DNA of 64,000 bases from Bryobacterales bacterium (GTDB taxonomy: Bacteria > Acidobacteriota > Terriglobia > Bryobacterales > UBA6623). Positions 19,065 to 46,856 of this stretch are shown one piece after another. The notes under the pieces were generated by a model. The model searched no databases. It was not told where the DNA came from and worked only from the letters and a program-made list of their open reading frames with translations. Numbering within the stretch: position 1 is the stretch's first letter; each line of letters opens with the position of its first letter. The stretch spans positions 1 through 64,000 of the forward strand of contig JAPPMG010000042.1 in NCBI GenBank assembly GCA_028819215.1, in the 5' to 3' direction. A program made the position numbers and the translations under genes.

Positions 19065-20387
19065 TCACTGATCCGCCGACCGCAGCAGCAGTTCCTCGAT
19101 CTCGGCCCGATCGTTCGGCACCGTTACGGGCGCGTTTCCGAAGGTCGACTGGATCGGCTCGTCCGAAGGGGTCTTCAACTGTCCGGAATGGTAGCGGTAC
19201 ACGTAGTCCGGATCCTTCAACAGGTGTCCGGTCAGGATCGCTGACACGTCTGCGTCCGGCTCGATGGTGCCGGCCCGAACCAGCTTGCGGATTCCGGCCA
19301 GCGTTGCCGCAGAGGCCGGCTCGGAGCCGATCCCGCAGCGGCCAATCACAGCTTTGGCGTCGGCGATTTCCTGTTCCGTGACAGACTCCACAACACCCGA
19401 CAGCTCCTTGACTTCAGACTCTGCCTTCCGCCAAGACACCGGGTCGCCGATGCGAATCGCGGTTGCCAGCGTTTCGGGCCTGCGCACAGCCCGGAGCACG
19501 CCGCCTTCGCGAAACAATCGCTCGAACGGGGCCGAGCCGGCGGCTTGCACCACGGCGACGCGCGGCAGGGAATCGATCAAGCCTGCGGCGTGCAGCTCGC
19601 GCAAGCCCTTCCCCAAAGCGCTGATGTTGCCCAAGTTGCCGCCGGGCAACACGATCCAGTCCGGCACCCGCCAGCCGCGCTGTTCGAGCATCTCGATCAC
19701 GATCGACTTCTGGCCCTCGATGCGGAACGGGTTCACCGAATTGAGCAAATAGATGCCCAGCTCGGCCGCAAGCTCCAAGACCAAGCCGAGGATCTGGTCA
19801 AAGTTGGCCTCCACTTGAATGGTGAGAGCTCCGTACTCCAATGCCTGCGCCAGCTTTCCGTAAGCGATGTTGCCCGCGGGCAGGAAGATCACTGCCTGCA
19901 TGCCGCTGGCCGCCGCATAAGCGGCGAGCGAAGCCGAAGTGTTGCCGGTCGAGACACAGGCCACGCGTCGCATGCCCAAGATCGCGGCCTGCGTCACCCC
20001 AGCGGTCATGCCGTTGTCCTTGAAGGACGCGGTCGGGTTGTAGCCCTGGTGTTTGAACTGCAAGCCCGCAAGCCCGGCATATTGCGCGGCTCGCGGGGCG
20101 TCGAACAGCGGCGTGTTGCCTTCCGGCAGGGTAACGATCCGGGCCGTGTCGGTGACGAACGGCAGCATCTCCCGGAAACGCCAGACTCCGCTCACGTCCA
20201 GCGGGGCCAGGCTGGTCCGCCGGCGCTGCCAGAGTGACTTCAGCTGCCGGGGATCGGCGTCGTCAAACGAGTTGACGACCTCTAGCAGGCTCCCGCAATC
20301 CCCGCAGGAATATACGATCTCGCTCAACCCGTACCGGCTGCCGCAAGTGGGGGAGAAGCACGACAAGTACGGGGCCACGGCAGGCAA
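19065..20387 (-). CDS. thrC: Threonine synthase
   Basis: 440 residues. An N-terminal zinc-ribbon-like segment has Cys10, Cys15, Cys28 and Cys31 (C-4-C-12-C-2-C). The PLP domain follows with Lys123 in SFKDNG, the CVSTGNTSASLAAYAA phosphate-region loop and LPGGNLGNISALGKG. It converts O-phosphohomoserine to threonine. The extended, zinc-finger N-terminus is typical of acidobacterial and other class II threonine synthases. Convergent with ilvD (51 bases apart), which places two amino-acid biosynthetic genes together. No other thr gene is in the window. Confidence 0.95.
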   Translation of the reverse strand: MPAVAPYLSCFSPTCGSRYGLSEIVYSCGDCGSLLEVVNSFDDADPRQLKSLWQRRRTSLAPLDVSGVWRFREMLPFVTDTARIVTLPEGNTPLFDAPRAAQYAGLAGLQFKHQGYNPTASFKDNGMTAGVTQAAILGMRRVACVSTGNTSASLAAYAAASGMQAVIFLPAGNIAYGKLAQALEYGALTIQVEANFDQILGLVLELAAELGIYLLNSVNPFRIEGQKSIVIEMLEQRGWRVPDWIVLPGGNLGNISALGKGLRELHAAGLIDSLPRVAVVQAAGSAPFERLFREGGVLRAVRRPETLATAIRIGDPVSWRKAESEVKELSGVVESVTEQEIADAKAVIGRCGIGSEPASAATLAGIRKLVRAGTIEPDADVSAILTGHLLKDPDYVYRYHSGQLKTPSDEPIQSTFGNAPVTVPNDRAEIEELLLRSADQ

Positions 20388-20547
20388 ATCTCATCGTATC
20401 AGCGCCCGATCCGAGATTTTGGCACCATGCTGCCGTTCAAACGCCCCCCGGAGCAGGGTGTTCCAACTTGGGCAGGGGTCGGCCAAGAAGAGCGTCGACG
20501 CGATCGACGTTGCCGCGCACGGCGCTCTTGCGCCAGAATCGTATCCG

Positions 20548-21912
20548 ATGCTATTCCGCCTCGCACTCTCGACCATGTTCATCTCGGCGTGGGCTGCGCA
20601 AGTGCGCGCCGAGCCCAATATCGTGCTGATCCTCGCCGACGACATGAGCTGGGTGGGCACTTCGGTGCTGATCGACCCGGCCAGATCGAATTCGAAGTCC
20701 GACTACCACAGCACGCCTGCGCTCGAGCGTCTAGCCGGCGAGGGCATGCGCTTCACAGACGCCTACGCGCCCCATCCAAACTGCTCGCCCACGCGCCTGG
20801 CAATCCAAACGGGCAAGACGCCGACCCAGCTCGGCATGACCGACATCATCAACCGCAACAGCGGTCCGTTCTACGAGGGGCTGCCCATGGTGCCGCCGCA
20901 GCACATCGACCACATACCCCACGCCGAGGTCACGATCGCCGAACTGATCAAGCGGCACCGCCCCGGCTATGTCACCGCACACTTTGGCAAATGGCATCTG
21001 GGAGGCGGCGGCCCGGGCCAGCACGGCTACGACCAGCACAGCGGCACGACGTCCAATCGCGAAGGCGGCTCGCCCGCCCCCGATCCCAAGCGCACCGTAA
21101 GCGTCACCACTCGGGCCGTGGACTTCCTGCGTCACCGCAGCGACGCGGGAGAGCCGTTCTTCCTGCAGGTGTCCTACTACGCGGTGCATCTGGGCATCTT
21201 TGCCTTTGACGAGACAATCGCGGAGTTCGAGGCCAAGCCCAAGGGCCGGCGGCACAACCATGCCGGTCACGCGGCAATGACCCATGAGCTGGACATCGGC
21301 GTCGGGCGGATTCTGGACGCGCTGGACCGACTCGAGCTTGCGGACAACACCTACGTGATCTTCACCTCCGACAACGGCTCGTACCACGACGCGGGCCAGA
21401 CGCGGGTGTCTAGCAACGCTCCGTTGCGCGGCCAGAAGGCGTCAACGTGGGAGGGCGGGATCCGCGTGCCGCTGCTGGTCAGAGGACCGGGGATTGCAGC
21501 TGGCAGCGTGAGTCGGGTGCCGGTGACCGGCACAGACCTCTTCCCTACGATCGCAGACATGGTGCAGGTCCAAGCCGAGCTGTCACCGCTCATCGAGGGG
21601 GCCAGCCTGCGAAGCCTGCTGTCAAACGAAGGCAATGGTTCGCTCTCGCGCCGGTTCGACAGCTTGGTCTGGCACTTCCCGCATTACCAAGTGCAGAAGG
21701 GCACCACGCCAATGTCGTCGATTCGCGCGGGCGATTGGAAGCTGGTCAGGCTGTACGAAACCGGCGAGACGTTCTTGTACAACCTCAGCGAAGACATTGG
21801 CGAGACCCAGGACCTTAGCGCCGACAAGCCGGAGAGGGCGCGGGAACTGACGGCAAGATTGGACCGCTACCTGGCGGAGGTGGACGCGCCGATGGCGCGG
21901 CATCGCAAGTGA
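20548..21912 (+). CDS. Secreted S1-family sulfatase
   Basis: 454 residues from ATG 20548; frames further upstream lack a signal peptide. The N-terminal signal (about 1-21, ending VRAEP) is followed by NIVLILADDMSW (two calcium-binding Asp) and the formylglycine motif CSPTR with Cys79. FGKWHLG, TSDNG and VPLLVRGPGI follow. Cys79 must be oxidised to formylglycine by a partner not seen in this window. The enzyme should hydrolyse sulfate esters of glycans or small molecules in the periplasm. The stop overlaps the GTG start of the multihaem gene by four bases, so the two are probably co-translated. Confidence 0.93.
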   Translation: MLFRLALSTMFISAWAAQVRAEPNIVLILADDMSWVGTSVLIDPARSNSKSDYHSTPALERLAGEGMRFTDAYAPHPNCSPTRLAIQTGKTPTQLGMTDIINRNSGPFYEGLPMVPPQHIDHIPHAEVTIAELIKRHRPGYVTAHFGKWHLGGGGPGQHGYDQHSGTTSNREGGSPAPDPKRTVSVTTRAVDFLRHRSDAGEPFFLQVSYYAVHLGIFAFDETIAEFEAKPKGRRHNHAGHAAMTHELDIGVGRILDALDRLELADNTYVIFTSDNGSYHDAGQTRVSSNAPLRGQKASTWEGGIRVPLLVRGPGIAAGSVSRVPVTGTDLFPTIADMVQVQAELSPLIEGASLRSLLSNEGNGSLSRRFDSLVWHFPHYQVQKGTTPMSSIRAGDWKLVRLYETGETFLYNLSEDIGETQDLSADKPERARELTARLDRYLAEVDAPMARHRK

Positions 21913-38691: not shown

Positions 38692-40323
38692 ATGCCTGAA
38701 GCGGCACAGGATCGGAGAATCTCCGGCAGGAAGCTCTGCGGAACGCTGCCCGCCGCCGCGGCGCTATGTCTCGCCCTGCCGCCGCTGGCGGCGGCAGAGG
38801 TTTTCCACACGTCGATCGGTGTATCCGCGGCTGGCAGCCCGATCCGCGCCGGGATCGGCTGGCATCCAGCCGATTTCGCGGCCCCGGCACCGCGTATCTT
38901 GCTGGTTGCGGGGCTTGACGGAAGCCAAGAATCGGTTGACTTGGCAGCCGCGCTGCTGCGACACAGCGGGGACGGTCCGTTCGCCCTGTCGATCGTGTTG
39001 AACGCTTTTCCCGATCGGGAGCCCGTCGAACGCTTCCCGCCAATCGGTCCGGCCTATGGGGGAGATGCGGTAGAGGCCCAGTACCTGTGGCGCTTCGTGG
39101 GTACGTTGGCACCGGACTTGGTAGTTGACCTTCGTTTTGACGACAGGCCAAGCGCGCTCGCAGGTGCATTGCAGCGAGGCCTGTCGCCCGCAGATGTCGG
39201 GCGCGTGCCAGCTGCGACGCTGCGCCTCGCCGCCAATGGCAAGACTCTGGACGAGCTGCGGCGCGAAGCAACCGAAGTGCTGGCGGCGCTCGCGGGATCG
39301 CAGCCGCCTTCCGGGGCCCGCAGGGAGCTGCAGGACAGGGTTTCCCGCTCTCCGGTCGAAGTTGCCGGCCAGCTCGCGCTCGTCTACGGCCATACGCTTG
39401 ATACCGCCACGTACATTCCGGCACTGGCACTGATCGGTCGCCTGCGACTTGGCGATATCGCCGGCGAGAGTCCGTTAGCAGACGTCGAGCAGATCGTGGC
39501 ACCGTTTCTAGGCGGCAAGGCGTCGTTGGGCGACCGCCCGAGCGGAAGCACTATCTCGGGCCACTTGGTCTTCGCGGATCTATACGAGCGAACCAACAAT
39601 CCGGCTTACCTAGCCCTGGCGCGTGCGGCTGCTGATCTGGGATTTGAACCGGATGGCTCGCTGAAGAGTTCGATGCCGTCTCACAACGAGATGAGCGACT
39701 CGGTGTTCATGGGCTGCGCGATCCTTGCGCGCGTCGGGCGTCTCACCGGAGAGAAGCGCTACTTCGAAATGGCGTTGCGTCACCTGCGTTTCATGCAGGA
39801 TCTCGACCTGCGATCCGACGGGCTCTACCGTCATTCGCCCTTGGACGAAGCGGCTTGGGGCCGAGGCAACGGATTCCCGGCGCTGGGGCTGGCGCTCGCA
39901 TTGTCGGACTGGCCGAAGGAACATCCGGGCAGCGCCGAGGCACAGGCGTCATACCTAGCGCACATGCGCGCCATGGCACGGCATCAGGATCCGACTGGCA
40001 TGTGGCACCAAGTGGTGGATCGTCCCGAAAGCTACCGCGAATTCACATCCACGGCCATGACCGGCTTCGCCATCACCCGAGGCCTGCGGAGAGGCTGGCT
40101 CGATCGTGGCGAATTCGAGCCGGTAGCGAACCGCGCCTGGAAGGCGGTCCTGGCTCGGATCAAGTCAGACGCGACCCTAGTGGATGTATGTCGCAGCACG
40201 GGCAGGCAGACTTCGCTGCGAGCCTATTTCAACCGCGAGGCGATCCTGGGGCGCGATGACCGGGGCGGCGCGATGGCGCTGCTGTTCGCGACCGAGCGGG
40301 CCCGCTGGGAGAGCGAGCGCTAG
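38692..40323 (+). CDS. Secreted two-domain six-hairpin hydrolase (GH88/105-like)
   Basis: 543 residues, signal peptide to about residue 35. The C-terminal half carries the (alpha/alpha)6 GH88/105 pattern: SDSVFMGCAILAR, HSPLDEAAWGRGNGFPALGLALAL, MARHQDPTGMWHQVVD, FTSTAMTGFAI. Those enzymes remove unsaturated uronic acids or rhamnose from oligosaccharides. The N-terminal half (to about 230) is different: APRILLVAGLDGSQESVDL and PDLVVDLRF resemble an M14-type or esterase-like domain, not a GH part. It starts one base after the fucosidase stop, so it is in the same operon. Confidence 0.8.
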   Translation: MPEAAQDRRISGRKLCGTLPAAAALCLALPPLAAAEVFHTSIGVSAAGSPIRAGIGWHPADFAAPAPRILLVAGLDGSQESVDLAAALLRHSGDGPFALSIVLNAFPDREPVERFPPIGPAYGGDAVEAQYLWRFVGTLAPDLVVDLRFDDRPSALAGALQRGLSPADVGRVPAATLRLAANGKTLDELRREATEVLAALAGSQPPSGARRELQDRVSRSPVEVAGQLALVYGHTLDTATYIPALALIGRLRLGDIAGESPLADVEQIVAPFLGGKASLGDRPSGSTISGHLVFADLYERTNNPAYLALARAAADLGFEPDGSLKSSMPSHNEMSDSVFMGCAILARVGRLTGEKRYFEMALRHLRFMQDLDLRSDGLYRHSPLDEAAWGRGNGFPALGLALALSDWPKEHPGSAEAQASYLAHMRAMARHQDPTGMWHQVVDRPESYREFTSTAMTGFAITRGLRRGWLDRGEFEPVANRAWKAVLARIKSDATLVDVCRSTGRQTSLRAYFNREAILGRDDRGGAMALLFATERARWESER

Positions 40324-40336
40324 TCGGCCGCGGCCG

Positions 40337-41350
40337 TCACGACAGCGTAACTGGAGCGCCCCCGCTGGCCCGAGAGCGCCCCATCGCCAGGGCCATGGCG
40401 ACTGACTCCGCTGACTCTTCAGGCCGACAGTCCGCTGGCGGAACACCGCTCTCGCAGCTGTCGACGAAGCTCTGGAGTTCGCCAACGAAACCATCCTGCT
40501 CGGGCAGGTCAACCTCCGCCATACTCCCGTCGGAGCGGTACAAGGACAGCCCCGGCTTGTCAGAGCTGTAATCGAGCGTCCCGCCATCGCACACGATCGT
40601 GAACTCCATGGAGAACGGAAAGCTCTCCGGGTGATGCCACCCGCCGGTGATGATCACTGGCACCCCGTCGCCGTAGTCCAGACGCACCTCGACCACGTCA
40701 ATGCCCCGTTCCGGATCCTCCGGGCCGATCGCGCTGACTGCTTCGGGCTTGCCGAACAGGTGCCGGCAGTAGTCGAAATCGTGGATCAACAGGTCGAAGA
40801 CCCCTCCCCCGCTCCGCTCGAAATCCTTGAGCCACGCGCCCCAAGCCGGCGCAGCGCAGCGCCGCCGAAAGCAAGCGGCGCGCACCCTGCCAAGTTCCCC
40901 CGATAGGATCTTCGCCCTGGCGGCAACGTAAGCGGGGAAGTACCGCAGGACCTGGGCCACCATCAGCACCCGCCCTGCCGCAGCGGCGGCCTCGATCATC
41001 TCGGAGCAATCAGCCTCGGTCAGTGCCATGGGCTTCTCCACCAGCACGTGCTTGCCGGCAGCGAGCGCCCTCAGGGCCAGCGGCTTGTGCAGATCCGTGG
41101 GAGTGCAAATGTCCACAGCTTCAACGCGGACATCGTCAATGAGATCCTCGGCTCGCTTGTAGCGGGCGGCCGAGCCGAAATCTATCTGCCCACCTCCGCG
41201 GTCCAGATTCCCGCCGACGTCGCCAAGGTCGCCGGAGAGCTTCCGGTCGCTCGAGCTCGAGACGGCCGCCAACTCATAGCCGCGCACTTCGCGGTAGGCC
41301 TCCAAATGCGTGCTGCCCATGAACCCTAGGCCAATTACACCGATCCGCAC
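40337..41350 (-). CDS. Gfo/Idh/MocA-family oxidoreductase
   Basis: 337 residues from GTG 41350, chosen because AGAGGGGG lies about ten bases upstream and the protein then starts with the NAD-binding motif VRIGVIGLGFMGSTHLEAY. VDICTPTDLHKPLALRALAAGKHVLVEKPMALT carries the conserved EKP Lys. FDLLIHDFDYCRHLFGKP is the C-terminal catalytic region with the His-Asp pair. It oxidises or reduces a sugar or inositol-type substrate with NAD(P). It is convergent with the GH operon and follows a GNAT gene on the minus strand. Confidence 0.9.
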   Translation of the reverse strand: MRIGVIGLGFMGSTHLEAYREVRGYELAAVSSSSDRKLSGDLGDVGGNLDRGGGQIDFGSAARYKRAEDLIDDVRVEAVDICTPTDLHKPLALRALAAGKHVLVEKPMALTEADCSEMIEAAAAAGRVLMVAQVLRYFPAYVAARAKILSGELGRVRAACFRRRCAAPAWGAWLKDFERSGGGVFDLLIHDFDYCRHLFGKPEAVSAIGPEDPERGIDVVEVRLDYGDGVPVIITGGWHHPESFPFSMEFTIVCDGGTLDYSSDKPGLSLYRSDGSMAEVDLPEQDGFVGELQSFVDSCESGVPPADCRPEESAESVAMALAMGRSRASGGAPVTLS

Positions 41351-41400
41351 AATCGATCCCCCTCTTCTCTCATCAAAGCCAAGCCCAGCTGGGCACCCGA

Positions 41401-42354
41401 TCAAGCACGAGTCCAGACGAACGCCGGAAAGGACGCCAGGGCCCTGAACCCTGCGCGCTCGTAAAGCTGGACGGCACGCTCGTTGGACGCGGTCACGGTC
41501 AGACTCACGGCATCGCATCCGGCCCGTCGGAAACCGTCCACGGCCCGCCGCAGCAGCTCCGAGCCGATGCCGAAACCGCGCCAGTCGGGAGCCACGCAAA
41601 GCTGGGTAAGGTGTCCGACGCTAGCGCCCACCATTCTTCCCAGACAGATTCCCCGCAACGTTGGCGATGACGCTTGCCGGGCGACGAGGCTGGCCTCCGG
41701 CAAGAACCGCCCTCTACTGCCCCTGTTGATCGTTTGCTGCAGGAATCGCTCCGCGCTGCAAACGCTGCGATACTCCTCGGTGACGCTGGCATCGACGTGC
41801 CCGGCATATGCTTCGGCAATCAGTTCTGAGGCGGGCTGCAACTGTGAGTCCGTCCACGGCAAGAATCGCATGCTCGGATCGACCGGGCCCGGCGAGGGCA
41901 ACGCGTCGCATGACTCCCTGATCATCAGTTGCCGCGGATAGACCTGCAGATCGCCTCGGACGCCCATCTGTACGTCTGGAAACGCATCCAGGCTTGCCAA
42001 CTGGCCTTCGACACGCTTGACCCCTGAAACCTGGAAGGCCGTGGCTACGGTCATTTCGAGCAGAGCCCCCTCAAGGTAAGGCACCCGATGAGCCGGCAGC
42101 ACGAACACTTCCCCGACCACTGCCTTGCTGCCCTGCAGCATGAAATAGCTGTAGCCAACCGGGGAGCCGCCGACCACCGCCGCCAAGCCAGCCAAGCAGC
42201 GCTGATCGAGCAAGCGGCGAATCTCATTGGTAGCGTCCCGATTGTCCCAAGCCAGCCGCTTAAGCCAATTCGCCCGCTGGGCTTCCAGCACTGGTTCTAG
42301 GTCCGGTCCGCGAAGATAATCGAGGTCCACCAGTCTGCCGATCGACTGCCGCAT
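41401..42354 (-). CDS. GNAT-family acetyltransferase, probably two-domain
   Basis: 317 residues from ATG 42354 (MRQSIGRLVDLDYL). The C-terminal half has the acetyl-CoA motif LCVAPDWRGFGIGSELLRRAVDGF and AVSLTVTASNERAVQLYERAGF. The N-terminal half (GYSYFMLQGSKAVVGEVFVLPAHR, then a break) looks like a degenerate second GNAT fold, suggesting a tandem protein. The acceptor is unknown. It lies 51 bases from the Gfo/Idh gene and 73 from the thiolase, on the same strand. Confidence 0.82.
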   Translation of the reverse strand: MRQSIGRLVDLDYLRGPDLEPVLEAQRANWLKRLAWDNRDATNEIRRLLDQRCLAGLAAVVGGSPVGYSYFMLQGSKAVVGEVFVLPAHRVPYLEGALLEMTVATAFQVSGVKRVEGQLASLDAFPDVQMGVRGDLQVYPRQLMIRESCDALPSPGPVDPSMRFLPWTDSQLQPASELIAEAYAGHVDASVTEEYRSVCSAERFLQQTINRGSRGRFLPEASLVARQASSPTLRGICLGRMVGASVGHLTQLCVAPDWRGFGIGSELLRRAVDGFRRAGCDAVSLTVTASNERAVQLYERAGFRALASFPAFVWTRA

Positions 42355-42427
42355 CAACGAGCCCCTGTCAGTGCGCCGCTGCCCTCCGCTGACAACCGCC
42401 CGCAAAACTTCCCGGTGGACTCGGCCA

Positions 42428-43609
42428 TCAGTTGGCCCCCACCACGGAAACGAAGCTGACGCAACGTCCGGGGGCCCCGCCGAGATTGTGCGTCAATCCA
42501 AGCCTTGGCGCTTCGACCTGCCTAGGGCCGGCCTCGCCACGGAACTGCAGCCACATCTCGTACATCATGCGGAGCCCGCTGGCGCCGATCGGATGCCCGA
42601 AGCTCTTCAGTCCGCCATCAGGATTGACCGGCTGAGCGCCGCCGATCTCGAACCGACCGTCCAAGGTGTCCCGCCAAGCCGTGCCCCGCGCGGAAAACCC
42701 TAGGTCCTCCATCAGCACCAATTCGGTCGGGGTGAAGCAGTCATGGACCTCGGCCAGCGAGATTTCATCGCGAGCGTTGCGAACGCCAGCCTGCGCATAG
42801 GCGTCTGCCGCGCTGGCCACGACTTCGGGGAACGTTGTGTAGTCGTAGTCTTGGCGCTTGGCACCATCAGCCGGGCCGGCGATGAACGACAGCGCCTTGA
42901 TCAGCAGTGGGTTATCGGTGTACTTGTGGGCATCCTCGCTGCGGCACAGAATCGCAGCCGATGCCCCGTCGCTGACACCCGAGCAATCAAACACTCCGAG
43001 CATGCCCGCCACTTTCGGCGCATTCTCGATGGTCGCCTCAGGCACTTCCCGCTGGTACTGCGCCTTGGGATTGCGCGCCCCGTTGGCGTGGTTCTTGTAA
43101 GCGATCCTGGTCAGAACCCGGCGCAGGGTGTCCGTGTCCAATCCGTACTTCTTGGAGTAGGCAGGCGCCAAGAGCGAGAAGGTGGCCGGCGCGGTCATGG
43201 AGGACTGCGTGCCATCGGTTGGCGTTCCACCTGCCGAGGCTAGACCTGAGTAGCCCGAGTCCTTCAGCTTCTCGACGCCGATCGCCATCACCAAGTCGTA
43301 GGCCCCGCAAGCTACCGCGTAGGCCGCGTTGCGGATTGCCTCGCTGCCGGTGGCGCAGAAGTTCTCCACGCGAGTGATCGGCCGGTAGCCAGTCTTCAGC
43401 GGCTCTGAGAGCAGCAGGCCGGAGCGCCCGCTGGTCAGCGTTCCCATCCAATAGGCGTCAATGGCCTCGCGCTCGATGTTCGCGGAACGGCAAGCCTCCA
43501 ACGCCGCCTCCACGAGCAGCTCGTTCGCCCCGCGGTCCCAATGCTCGCCGAAGCGGGTGCATCCCATCCCCACGATGGCAACACGATCCCGGATTCCGTT
43601 GCTAGGCAT
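42428..43609 (-). CDS. Thiolase-superfamily acetyl-CoA acetyltransferase
   Basis: 393 residues from ATG 43609 (MPSNGIRDRVAIVGMG). The active-site Cys85 lies in ENFCATGSEA; SFGHPIGASGL supplies the catalytic His, and HNLGGAPG ends the fold. This is the SCP2/archaeal-like thiolase group, which condenses two acetyl-CoA or thiolyses acyl-CoA. Usually such thiolases work with a DUF35 partner that has a zinc ribbon. Here that partner is fused to the HMG-CoA-synthase-like gene 28 bases upstream. It is therefore likely to be one complex. Confidence 0.9.
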   Translation of the reverse strand: MPSNGIRDRVAIVGMGCTRFGEHWDRGANELLVEAALEACRSANIEREAIDAYWMGTLTSGRSGLLLSEPLKTGYRPITRVENFCATGSEAIRNAAYAVACGAYDLVMAIGVEKLKDSGYSGLASAGGTPTDGTQSSMTAPATFSLLAPAYSKKYGLDTDTLRRVLTRIAYKNHANGARNPKAQYQREVPEATIENAPKVAGMLGVFDCSGVSDGASAAILCRSEDAHKYTDNPLLIKALSFIAGPADGAKRQDYDYTTFPEVVASAADAYAQAGVRNARDEISLAEVHDCFTPTELVLMEDLGFSARGTAWRDTLDGRFEIGGAQPVNPDGGLKSFGHPIGASGLRMMYEMWLQFRGEAGPRQVEAPRLGLTHNLGGAPGRCVSFVSVVGAN

Positions 43610-43637
43610 GCGCGTCAGACCTCCTTCGGACTTGATT

Positions 43638-45026
43638 CTAACGCCGCGGGCGCGCCTTCCAGAAATAGTTCCGGACGCCATCGGCAGTGTACAGGCGGCG
43701 GAACGTCATTTCCAACTCCTGCCCAATCTCTACCTTCTTGGGGTCGACATCGGCAAGTTCACAGGCGAACCGACCGCCCTGGTCGTAGTCGATCACCGCT
43801 GCCACCACTGGCGGCTGTAGCGAGTATGCCAGATGATCGACCGTGTAGGTGGCGACCCGAGCAGTCGCGTCGGCGTACGGTACTTCGTCCATCCAGTCGA
43901 CCGCGCCACACTGGACGCATACGACCTGGGGCGGCAGGTTGACGGCTCCGCAGGAGCGGCAGCGCGAACCGACGAAGGCGTACTTCCAGCGTTCCGAACG
44001 CCGCATCGGCGGTGCGGCAGGGCGGGGCGGATCGGGTCGTCTAGGCGGCTCGAAAGGCAGGATTTCCCGCCACTTCAGATAGGTCTCGTACGCAACGTCG
44101 GCGCGCTTGGACTGGATCCAATCAGCGACAGAGTGAACCGGGCGATGGTCGGCGATATGCTCGCTGGCTTGCACGATCAGCGCGCTTGCTCCGTCGGAGG
44201 CGCTGAGCACCGCCAACCTGTCCCCCGGCTCGGCCGAATCCAGCAGGCCAGCCAGCAGGAGCCCGGCATGAGCGGCCCCCGCCCGTCCCACGCTGCCAGA
44301 CAAGTCGTCGGCAAGCTGATCGGGCCGCAAACCCGCCGCCCGCGCAAACAGGCTCCCGACCTTGCGATGCCCGGAGTCCACGGCGACGAGCTTGAGATCG
44401 GAGGGCGCAAGGCCGGACTCTGCCAAGCTGCGCTCGAACGCGCTGCCGAGCGCCGGCACCAAGCGTTGCTGCGCGAAGCGCTCTTCCCACTGCCGCGCGA
44501 ACTGCTGCTCCGGGCCGCGCCAAACATCCAGCAACTCCTCTGCATGGGAACCGCTGCCAAGAATCCTCGCCGCCGCGCCTTCGTCGCCACCCACCAAGAA
44601 TGCACAGGCCGCATCCCCGCCCATCGCCTCGCGGGCTCCCATCGGCGCACCGACAACCACATCAGCGCAGCACACCAACGACGGCCTCCCGGCGCCGATC
44701 TCGGACGCAATCGCCAGCGCGGCCACGCCCGCCCCGCTCGATGATGAGAGATCCGCCAGCCGAGTCTCAGGCGGCAAATCGAGCGCCGCATGCACCCCGG
44801 CCGCGTTGAGCTTCTCTGCGTAAGCGTGGGAGGTTGAGGCGAACAACAGCGTGGCTGGGGCGGGCGCGCTTCCGCGCATCGCCTCGCGGCCCGCTTCGAC
44901 TGCTAGCGAGGTCGCGTCCTCGTCGAAATTGGCGATGGCTCGCTCGCCGCGTCCACCGCCTTCGAGGCGGGCCCGTTGCAGGCGGCAGTACGGAACGTAG
45001 GAGCCGTACCGCAGGATCCCGGCCAT
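43638..45026 (-). CDS. HMG-CoA-synthase-like protein fused to a DUF35 zinc-ribbon/OB domain
   Basis: 462 residues from ATG 45026 (MAGILRYGSYVPYCRL). Residues 1 to ~330 match the HMG-CoA synthase/KAS-III fold: ANFDEDATSLAVEAG with the acidic active-site area, AVDSGHRKVGSLFARAAGL and LAVLSASDGASALIV. The position of the catalytic Cys, usually in S-C-R-A-G, appears to be Ser97 (LSSSSGAG). The C-terminal ~120 residues are DUF35: four Cys as CRSCG and CVQCG, then an OB fold (VATYTVDHLAYSLQPPVVAAVIDYD). In archaea, thiolase, HMGCS and DUF35 are separate subunits; here two are fused next to the thiolase. The reaction is uncertain because of the missing Cys. Confidence 0.85.
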   Translation of the reverse strand: MAGILRYGSYVPYCRLQRARLEGGGRGERAIANFDEDATSLAVEAGREAMRGSAPAPATLLFASTSHAYAEKLNAAGVHAALDLPPETRLADLSSSSGAGVAALAIASEIGAGRPSLVCCADVVVGAPMGAREAMGGDAACAFLVGGDEGAAARILGSGSHAEELLDVWRGPEQQFARQWEERFAQQRLVPALGSAFERSLAESGLAPSDLKLVAVDSGHRKVGSLFARAAGLRPDQLADDLSGSVGRAGAAHAGLLLAGLLDSAEPGDRLAVLSASDGASALIVQASEHIADHRPVHSVADWIQSKRADVAYETYLKWREILPFEPPRRPDPPRPAAPPMRRSERWKYAFVGSRCRSCGAVNLPPQVVCVQCGAVDWMDEVPYADATARVATYTVDHLAYSLQPPVVAAVIDYDQGGRFACELADVDPKKVEIGQELEMTFRRLYTADGVRNYFWKARPRR

Positions 45027-45173
45027 GGTCCGGCCATTGTCGCACGGGCGCATTGCGGTCTGACAGAGCCCTACCGCTGTGCATTCCCCTTGCTCGGACT
45101 CCGTGGCACGTGCCGTCGAGGCGCGAGTGCTGGCAGTCCGTGCAATCGACTCTTTACACTGCAAGCAAGCTCA

Positions 45174-46856
45174 ATGATGCGCAACCGAAATTCCGCCCTC
45201 TCGTGGGCTGCACTTGCCATCGTAACGGTGGCCACCTGCCCGAAGTTGATCGGCGAACCGGCCTTCCAGACACAGCCGACGATTCGGCCGAATCCGAATC
45301 CCGCGGTTCCGCTGGCGGCGATCGTATCATTCGAAACCGTCCAACCGGTCCAGACGACCCTGACCGTTTCCGATGGCGAGCGCCAATGGACCCTTGAGTA
45401 CCCGGCAAGCCGGAACCCTGGGGAGGGACTCCCTGTCGTGGGCATGAAGTACGGCAAGTCGCACCGGATCGGCGTCAGAATCACCAGTTCGCAGGGCGAG
45501 GCCGCAGATTCACCGGCGCGGCTGAGGTTCACAACGCCCGAAAAGCCCAACGACAAGACGCTCGTCCCGCCTGTACGAGTAATGGTCAGCAAGCCGGAAA
45601 AGATGGAACCGGGCTATACGCTGCTGAGTCTCAGGCGCGTGCTGCCCCGCTTGCAAGGGCAGCAGAGGCGCCGCATGGGAGCGACTTTCGGACTGCTGGC
45701 AGCGATCGATCACAACGGCGAGATTGTCTGGAGCTACCAGTCAGATGCGAGGATCAGCGACGTCGAGCCCCTCCGCAACGGCAACTTCGCGTTCGTGACC
45801 ACTGACAACCGGGCGACCGAAATCGACGTTCTCGGCAATCGCGTCGGACACTGGTACGCCGCCGATCGACCGCGGGGAGAAGCGGACGCCATTCCGATTC
45901 CGACGCTGACGATGCATCACGAGATCGACGAGCTCTCGAACGGGAACCTCATCGTGATGGGCACCGAGATCCGCGAATACGACAACTGGTACACCAGCGA
46001 GACCGACCCCGACGCCCCGCGGGCGCGCGAGCGGGTAATGGGCGACGTGATCGTCGAGTTCACGCGGGATGGCACGGTCGTCTGGGTCTGGAAGGCGCTC
46101 GATCATCTCGATCCTTATCGGATCGGGTACGAGACTTTCACCAACTACTGGATCAACAGGGGCTTCCCTGGCGCAAGGGACTGGTCTCACGGCAACGGAT
46201 TTTTCCACGACGAGAGAGACGACTCGCTCCTGATCTCATTCCGAATGCAGGATGCGGTCGTCAAGGTGGACCGCAAGACTGGCGAAATCGTCTGGATCCT
46301 GGGCGACCACAGTGGCTGGCCGCTTCACCTGCAGCCGAAGCTGCTGACTCCTGAAGGCGAGATGTCTTGGTTCTATCACCAGCACATGCCACAAATCACC
46401 TCCAACGGAACACTGCTGCTCTTCGACAACCGCACGTTCTCCGCCCGCCCTTTCGCGCCCCCCCTGCGTCCGGCCCAAACGTGGACGCGGGCTGTCGAGT
46501 ACGCGATCAATGAGGAGACCCGATCCGTGAAGCAGCTCTGGAGCTCCGAAGGACAGGCGATGGACCGTCTCATGACGTTCGCCATGGGAGAGGCCGATGC
46601 GATGCCGACAACCGGAAACGTCTTGCTCTTCTACGGCAGTGCCGCGGTTGTGACTGACATGACGTTGGATTGGGAGGACGTTCTCGCACCGGGCGGTGGC
46701 ACGGATCGAGGCACCCGCATCCGCGAATTCACTCGCACCGACCCATCCGAGATCGTGTGGGACATTGATATATACGATTCCAGCGAAAACCAAGTCCGCT
46801 GGGGGATTTATGGCGGGGCGAGGATCTCGCAGTTCGGAGCTCATCCTGAAAAGTGA
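45174..46856 (+). CDS. Secreted aryl-sulfate sulfotransferase-like protein
   Basis: 560 residues from ATG 45174 with a signal peptide (MMRNRNSALSWAALAIV). The arylsulfotransferase beta-propeller pattern is clear: IDHNGEIVWSY, HHEIDELSNGN, VIVEFTRDGTVVWVWKALDH, SHGNGFFHDERDDSLLISFRMQDAVVKVDRKTGEIVWILGDH, HQHMPQITSNGTLLLFDN. These enzymes move sulfate between phenolic compounds in the periplasm without PAPS. The His residues of the active site are present in the HH and HQH motifs. It is divergent from the HMGCS-like gene and is one of three sulfate-ester loci in the window. Confidence 0.87.
   Translation: MMRNRNSALSWAALAIVTVATCPKLIGEPAFQTQPTIRPNPNPAVPLAAIVSFETVQPVQTTLTVSDGERQWTLEYPASRNPGEGLPVVGMKYGKSHRIGVRITSSQGEAADSPARLRFTTPEKPNDKTLVPPVRVMVSKPEKMEPGYTLLSLRRVLPRLQGQQRRRMGATFGLLAAIDHNGEIVWSYQSDARISDVEPLRNGNFAFVTTDNRATEIDVLGNRVGHWYAADRPRGEADAIPIPTLTMHHEIDELSNGNLIVMGTEIREYDNWYTSETDPDAPRARERVMGDVIVEFTRDGTVVWVWKALDHLDPYRIGYETFTNYWINRGFPGARDWSHGNGFFHDERDDSLLISFRMQDAVVKVDRKTGEIVWILGDHSGWPLHLQPKLLTPEGEMSWFYHQHMPQITSNGTLLLFDNRTFSARPFAPPLRPAQTWTRAVEYAINEETRSVKQLWSSEGQAMDRLMTFAMGEADAMPTTGNVLLFYGSAAVVTDMTLDWEDVLAPGGGTDRGTRIREFTRTDPSEIVWDIDIYDSSENQVRWGIYGGARISQFGAHPEK

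Follow-up and report, generated by a model that had tools for sequence, protein, structure and literature searches.

Two adjoining reverse-strand genes in the 64,000-nt stretch of DNA analysed here (the window) probably encode a single enzyme, in which an active thiolase is joined by a non-catalytic partner built from an HMGCS-like domain fused to DUF35. This enzyme likely cleaves beta-ketoacyl-CoA rather than serving the mevalonate pathway, and the pair is best read as a PhlACB/MucABC-related architecture encoded by two genes.

The fusion gene and its partner thiolase

The fusion gene (43638..45026, reverse strand) encodes 462 amino acids, and its domains were assigned from the translation and its Pfam, NCBIfam, and PDB matches. 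Residues 1–323 (44058..45026, reverse strand) make up a thiolase-fold, catalytically degenerate HMGCS-like domain that matched the archaeal-type HMG-CoA synthase model NF003274 over residues 2–323 (E=1.3e-36), with 6esq_I as its nearest PDB chain (E=4.4e-16). The DUF35 part, a zinc ribbon plus OB fold at residues 346–460 (43647..43991, reverse strand), scored above the Pfam cut-offs for both PF12172 (zf-ChsH2, residues 349–375, 32.3 vs 23.2 bits) and PF01796 (OB_ChsH2_C, residues 385–443, 42.3 vs 27.1 bits). All four of its zinc-ribbon cysteines are present (C356, C359, C370, and C373; 43908..43961, reverse strand), each kept in 104–105 of 110 fused relatives, which places it among the DUF35 zinc-ribbon proteins; these cysteines are partly lost in a Sphingomonas paeninsulae plasmid homologue (L166) and a few of the 110 relatives. 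An AlphaFold2 model of the fusion, made with 38 relatives as input (pLDDT 89, pTM 0.91), found its best solved fold match in 6et9_I, the HMGCS subunit of the archaeal complex (Z 43.1, rmsd 1.8, 324 residues), followed by the HMGCS-like subunits of PhlACB-type enzymes and MucABC (Z 38–41). All top matches of this predicted fold are thus subunits of multicomponent thiolase-type complexes, and such likeness by itself proves no function.

The gene behind it encodes a thiolase of 393 amino acids and of the PRK06157 type (42428..43609, reverse strand), which scored 597.6 bits against a cut-off of 403 for NF004810 and carries the Cys nucleophile and the HDCF, GHP, and NLGG motifs of the SCP2/archaeal-type thiolases. 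It lies 28 nt downstream of the fusion ORF, and a Shine-Dalgarno-like AAGGAGG read from the sequence (43620..43626, reverse strand) stands within that gap, 10 nt before the thiolase ATG. The first-pass annotation had described an HMGCS-like/DUF35 fusion 28 bases from a thiolase, and the domain matches, coordinates, and spacing agree with it exactly.

The arrangement is conserved: a same-strand thiolase lies downstream of the fusion in 75 of 79 loci, with a median gap of 28 nt. Of the four loci that depart from it, three lie at contig ends, and in the fourth (L022, genome G014) the pair is split, with an 81% identical thiolase on the fusion's own contig at a distance of about 37 kb. Two distant acidobacterial fusions (L158 and L159) have no thiolase of the PRK06157 kind within 8 kb on either side, and in another locus (L020, genome G010) the fusion gene is interrupted by an insert that contains a run of N, so the break is most likely an assembly gap. 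Distances among the fusions and among the thiolases covary (Mantel r 0.93), as expected for joint inheritance, to which host phylogeny contributes as well. Within the genus, dN/dS was about 0.08–0.17 for the synthase-like domain, 0.02–0.15 for DUF35, and 0.01–0.07 for the thiolase. The dead synthase-like domain is still under purifying selection, and these values suggest that it is constrained yet looser than the thiolase, as for a scaffold. We also considered a decaying pseudogene, which is ruled out by dN/dS well under 1 together with conservation across phyla.

Loss of the synthase active site

In alignment with the HMGCS of Methanothermococcus (MtHMGCS), Ser97 of the fusion (codon AGC, 44736..44738, reverse strand) pairs with the nucleophile Cys114, and the positions of Glu82, His238, and Asn270 are taken by Thr65, Asp217, and Arg248. 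The loss extends through nearly the whole clade. At the Cys114 column the 110 fused relatives carry Thr (33), Ser (30), Val (17), Leu (10), Ile (8), Ala (4), Pro (4), Gly (3), or Gln (1), and Cys in none; Glu is likewise absent from the Glu82 position in all 110, His remains at the His238 position in one (109 lost), and Asn at the Asn270 position in 17 (93 lost). Around the former active site we found no conserved substitute Cys among these relatives, residues 93–101 being Cys-free in 101 of them. Homologues that bear the Cys within the same fused operon were also sought and not found; the Cys-bearing ones are unfused, and in five such HMGCS from the same phylum (Acidobacteriota) the Cys, Glu, His, and Asn are intact in every one, four of the five also having a thiolase directly behind. 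The fusion itself falls short of the curated NCBIfam cut-offs for HMGCS, scoring 126.4 vs 244 (NF003274) and 90.5 vs 353 (TIGR00748). We are highly confident that the HMGCS-like domain is dead as a synthase.

These results divide the earlier suggestion that a Ser replaces the catalytic Cys: Ser97 does occupy the Cys114 position, but it is not conserved, and Glu, His, and Asn are gone too. Because the Cys column varies and the residues are lost clade-wide, Ser97 appears to be one outcome among many at a dead site, and the alignment indicates that it is not a conserved nucleophile. That Ser97 serves as the nucleophile of a condensing or acyl-transferring domain has its position in its favour, yet with Ser in just 30 of 110 relatives and His238 and Asn270 lost as well, we regard it as highly improbable, and the variable column led us to reject it. 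A different reaction performed through the Ser as such, as had been proposed, is unsupported for the same reason, since the position varies freely. In Chromobacterium PhlC the C88S variant is inactive (PMC12955522), showing that Cys to Ser is not tolerated in that enzyme.

Other residues of the former active site have become conserved. Residue 98 (44733-44735 in the window), the neighbour of the lost nucleophile, is Arg in 105 of 110 fused relatives, Asp217 is found in 82 of 110, and Arg222 in 75 of 80, and these new polar residues could point beyond scaffolding. Together with the purifying selection on the domain, they are what would favour its having been repurposed for bulky acyl-CoA binding or new chemistry via Arg98, Asp217, Arg222, and Arg248. 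Against this, residue 98 is Gly in the fusion's own close clade (4 of the 110 sequences), residue 248 alternates among Arg, Gln, and Asn across relatives, and no defined new triad emerges, so that we hold such repurposing to be unlikely. A more specific and still tentative possibility, to which we give somewhat more weight, is that the dead pocket was rebuilt (Arg98, Asp217, and Arg222) to bind or gate bulky ring-derived, steroid-like acyl-CoAs and pass them on to the thiolase, making the clade an unrecognised bacterial enzyme family. If so, the "HMG-CoA synthase" labels in many catabolic clusters would mark a substrate-loading subunit.

The thiolase has kept its catalytic residues throughout. 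Among 105 thiolases compared (101 partners of fused and 4 of unfused synthases), the nucleophile Cys85 (43355..43357, reverse strand), His289 and Cys291 of the HDC motif (His289-Asp290-Cys291; 42737..42745, reverse strand), and His339 of the GHP motif (42593..42595, reverse strand) are each present in 105 of 105. Its closest solved relative is 6esq_A, the archaeal acetoacetyl-CoA thiolase (E=5.3e-56); the match to PhlC is far weaker (E=4.3e-24).

Distribution and gene neighbourhoods

Fusion–thiolase pairs were detected in Acidobacteriota, Pseudomonadota, Myxococcota, Binatota, Actinomycetota, Chloroflexota, and Rokubacteria, and relatives of the fusion are present in the source organism's own genus and family. 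A wider search yielded 80 named loci from many phyla, with at least 593 pattern matches and at least 536 confirmed relatives, and 69 of 396 Acidobacteriota genomes contain relatives when unfused synthases are counted in. Because both the gene pair and the missing Cys recur in relatives of many phyla, a pair without Cys is not a chance occurrence. A maximum-likelihood tree built on the synthase domain, with 46 fused sequences among its members, grouped the fused proteins in one clade (support 100/99) to which neither the Cys-bearing synthases nor the PhlA-like subunits belonged, and a quick tree with three extra plasmid sequences gave the same split. Our literature search found no paper on the fused family as such.

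The genome gives little room for a mevalonate role. We found no match to HMG-CoA reductase (PF00368) in the organism's own genome or in 12 searched genomes of its family, and IspH is present in the own genome, so the suggested check for mevalonate genes elsewhere in the genome came back negative. A working mevalonate-type HMG-CoA synthase/thiolase channelling complex of the archaeal style would have the same fold and the same gene partners, but with all four catalytic residues lost, scores far below the synthase cut-offs, no HMG-CoA reductase, and IspH present, we give this reading almost no credence; residue loss, the absent reductase, and IspH were our grounds for rejecting a mevalonate role.

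Elsewhere in its own genome the organism has 1 canonical thiolase, 8 acyl-CoA dehydrogenase, and 7 enoyl-CoA hydratase matches, which indicates that upstream beta-oxidation enzymes are available. We sought a conserved catabolic neighbourhood around the pair in its nearest relatives and found none, so the "degradative" label depends on distant members. These adjoin acyl-CoA dehydrogenases, hydratases, ETF, and CoA ligases: on Rhodococcus and Mycobacterium avium plasmids the pair occurs with a ring-hydroxylating dioxygenase, a CoA ligase, and hydratases, further members sit within clusters for acyl-CoA catabolism on plasmids of Azoarcus, Variovorax, and Sphingomonas, and those of Acidobacteriota lie in ETF/acyl-CoA dehydrogenase clusters. 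The proposed unusual acyl-CoA pathway thus holds in part, with distant relatives placed in beta-oxidation, aromatic, and steroid clusters but the nearest ones without fixed catabolic neighbours.

One distant member points to steroids. Plasmid p3 of Novosphingobium ES2-1 (L168) carries a fused pair member without the catalytic Cys, about 33% identical to the 462-aa fusion, in a steroid-type cluster with a P450, a lipid-transfer protein, VOC proteins, and an indolepyruvate ferredoxin oxidoreductase. Its gene order is that of the edc estrogen-degradation operon of Novosphingobium tardaugens, where, as here, a thiolase (EGO55_13550) and an "HMG-CoA synthase" (EGO55_13555) are adjacent; by gene order, EGO55_13555 would be a member of the fused family. 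This "HMG-CoA synthase" puzzled the authors of the estrogen-degradation work, who were unable to place it (PMC7793797).

Several other features surround the pair in the window. After the thiolase, on the same strand, come a two-part GNAT acetyltransferase (41401-42405) and a Gfo/Idh/MocA oxidoreductase (40337-41599), an order kept in four related loci (L017–L020), while in L022 the GNAT gene is upstream and divergent. An arylsulfotransferase (ASST) gene (44976-46856, forward strand) is divergent from the fusion, and its ORF as listed overlaps the fusion's 5' end solely via an upstream TTG, and the window also contains a sulfatase (20053-21912) and a GH88 hydrolase (38692-40323). Elsewhere in the own genome (G000; C53, C96, and C79) and in a relative (G006; C21), we noted very long frames (8229 and 8337 aa, and 17911 aa in G006) with repeated weak matches to thiolase models, which are probably explained by giant modular PKS genes in the genus.

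Comparison with known complexes

The archaeal complex of Methanothermococcus thermolithotrophicus (6ESQ, 6ET9) shares its three modules and its synthase fold with the pair, and differs in that here the synthase and DUF35 are fused, Glu82, Cys114, His238, and Asn270 are lost, and HMG-CoA reductase is missing from the genome. The fusion therefore resembles archaeal HMGCS in its predicted fold, but not in its catalytic residues, its family scores, or its pathway. Another parallel is the PhlACB Friedel-Crafts acylase (5M3K, 5MG5, 9SKH), in which, as in the pair as read from sequence, a DUF35 bridge and an inert HMGCS-like subunit accompany an active thiolase. In PhlACB only PhlC residues are catalytic, neither the Cys nor the Glu is present in PhlA, and the DUF35 protein PhlB bridges PhlA and PhlC (PMC6392133). 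Multicomponent acyltransferases of the PhlACB and MucABC kind are characterised by an (A2C2)2B4 assembly and by C-acyl transfer that is independent of CoA. By alignment the Cys position is Gly in PhlA (9skh) and Glu in the 9vbo subunit, so the Cys is missing from these subunits as it is from the fused clade. PhlACB and MucABC (9VBO) keep as separate chains what is fused here, PhlA and the 9vbo subunit fall outside the fused clade, and the pair's thiolase is nearer to CoA thiolases than to PhlC.

With the same three components and the same inert HMGCS-like partner, the pair could be a C-acyltransferase like PhlACB or MucABC, moving an acyl group to a carbon acceptor (phenolic or other) with no need for CoA. 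We nevertheless think this improbable, given the thiolase's much stronger match to 6esq_A than to PhlC, the retention of His289, Cys291, and His339 in all 105 thiolases, the separation of the fused clade from PhlA, and the fact that no phloroglucinol- or tetramate-type biosynthetic neighbours of the pair were seen. The thiolase's much closer likeness to the archaeal CoA thiolase, and the retention of its residues, make CoA-dependent thiolysis likelier than acyl transfer of the PhlC kind. A further group of comparison, the steroid aldolases Ltp2-ChsH2 and Sal-Shy and the benzoylsuccinyl-CoA thiolase BbsAB, also pairs a thiolase-fold enzyme with DUF35, but no HMGCS-like domain has been described in these systems. 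A DUF35 plus thiolase-fold partnership in steroid catabolism and the fused homologue in the estrogen-type cluster would both suit a retro-aldolase of the Ltp2/Sal kind; those enzymes, however, use Tyr-Tyr or Tyr/Cys pairs as catalytic residues (PMC12329534), a signature absent from this thiolase, which keeps Cys85, His289, Cys291, and His339, and we consider this reading very unlikely.

Our preferred reading is therefore that of an active thiolase with a non-catalytic fused partner. The thiolase would carry out the chemistry through Cys85, His289/Cys291, and His339, most likely the CoA-dependent thiolytic cleavage of a beta-ketoacyl-CoA, reversible as a Claisen condensation, and we place modest confidence in the degradative direction. 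Without its Glu, Cys, His, and Asn, the HMGCS-like domain may act as a structural, cavity-forming subunit, and the covalently attached DUF35 may link it with the thiolase, a role that DUF35 also plays in the archaeal thiolase/HMGCS complex and in PhlACB. By analogy with these systems we have fair confidence that fusion and thiolase form a complex, and the fusion would supply the roles of PhlA and PhlB in one chain. The earlier idea of a non-condensing partner is well supported, the four catalytic residues being lost here and nearly clade-wide and PhlACB having just such an inert subunit (PMC6392133).

Read in this way, a pair that occurs across many phyla receives a simple assignment as one enzyme, and PhlA is no longer alone: the fused proteins would be a second group of condensing enzymes that seem to have turned into structural partners. 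With synthase and DUF35 in one chain, the fusion also offers a convenient two-gene system for the inert partner's role. Databases label the fused proteins "OB-fold domain-containing protein" or "hydroxymethylglutaryl-CoA synthase", and the latter label gives the wrong function throughout the fused clade and leads pathway reconstruction astray. The pair is best seen as a known kind of multienzyme complex in a new fused form, one that is widespread and often misannotated.
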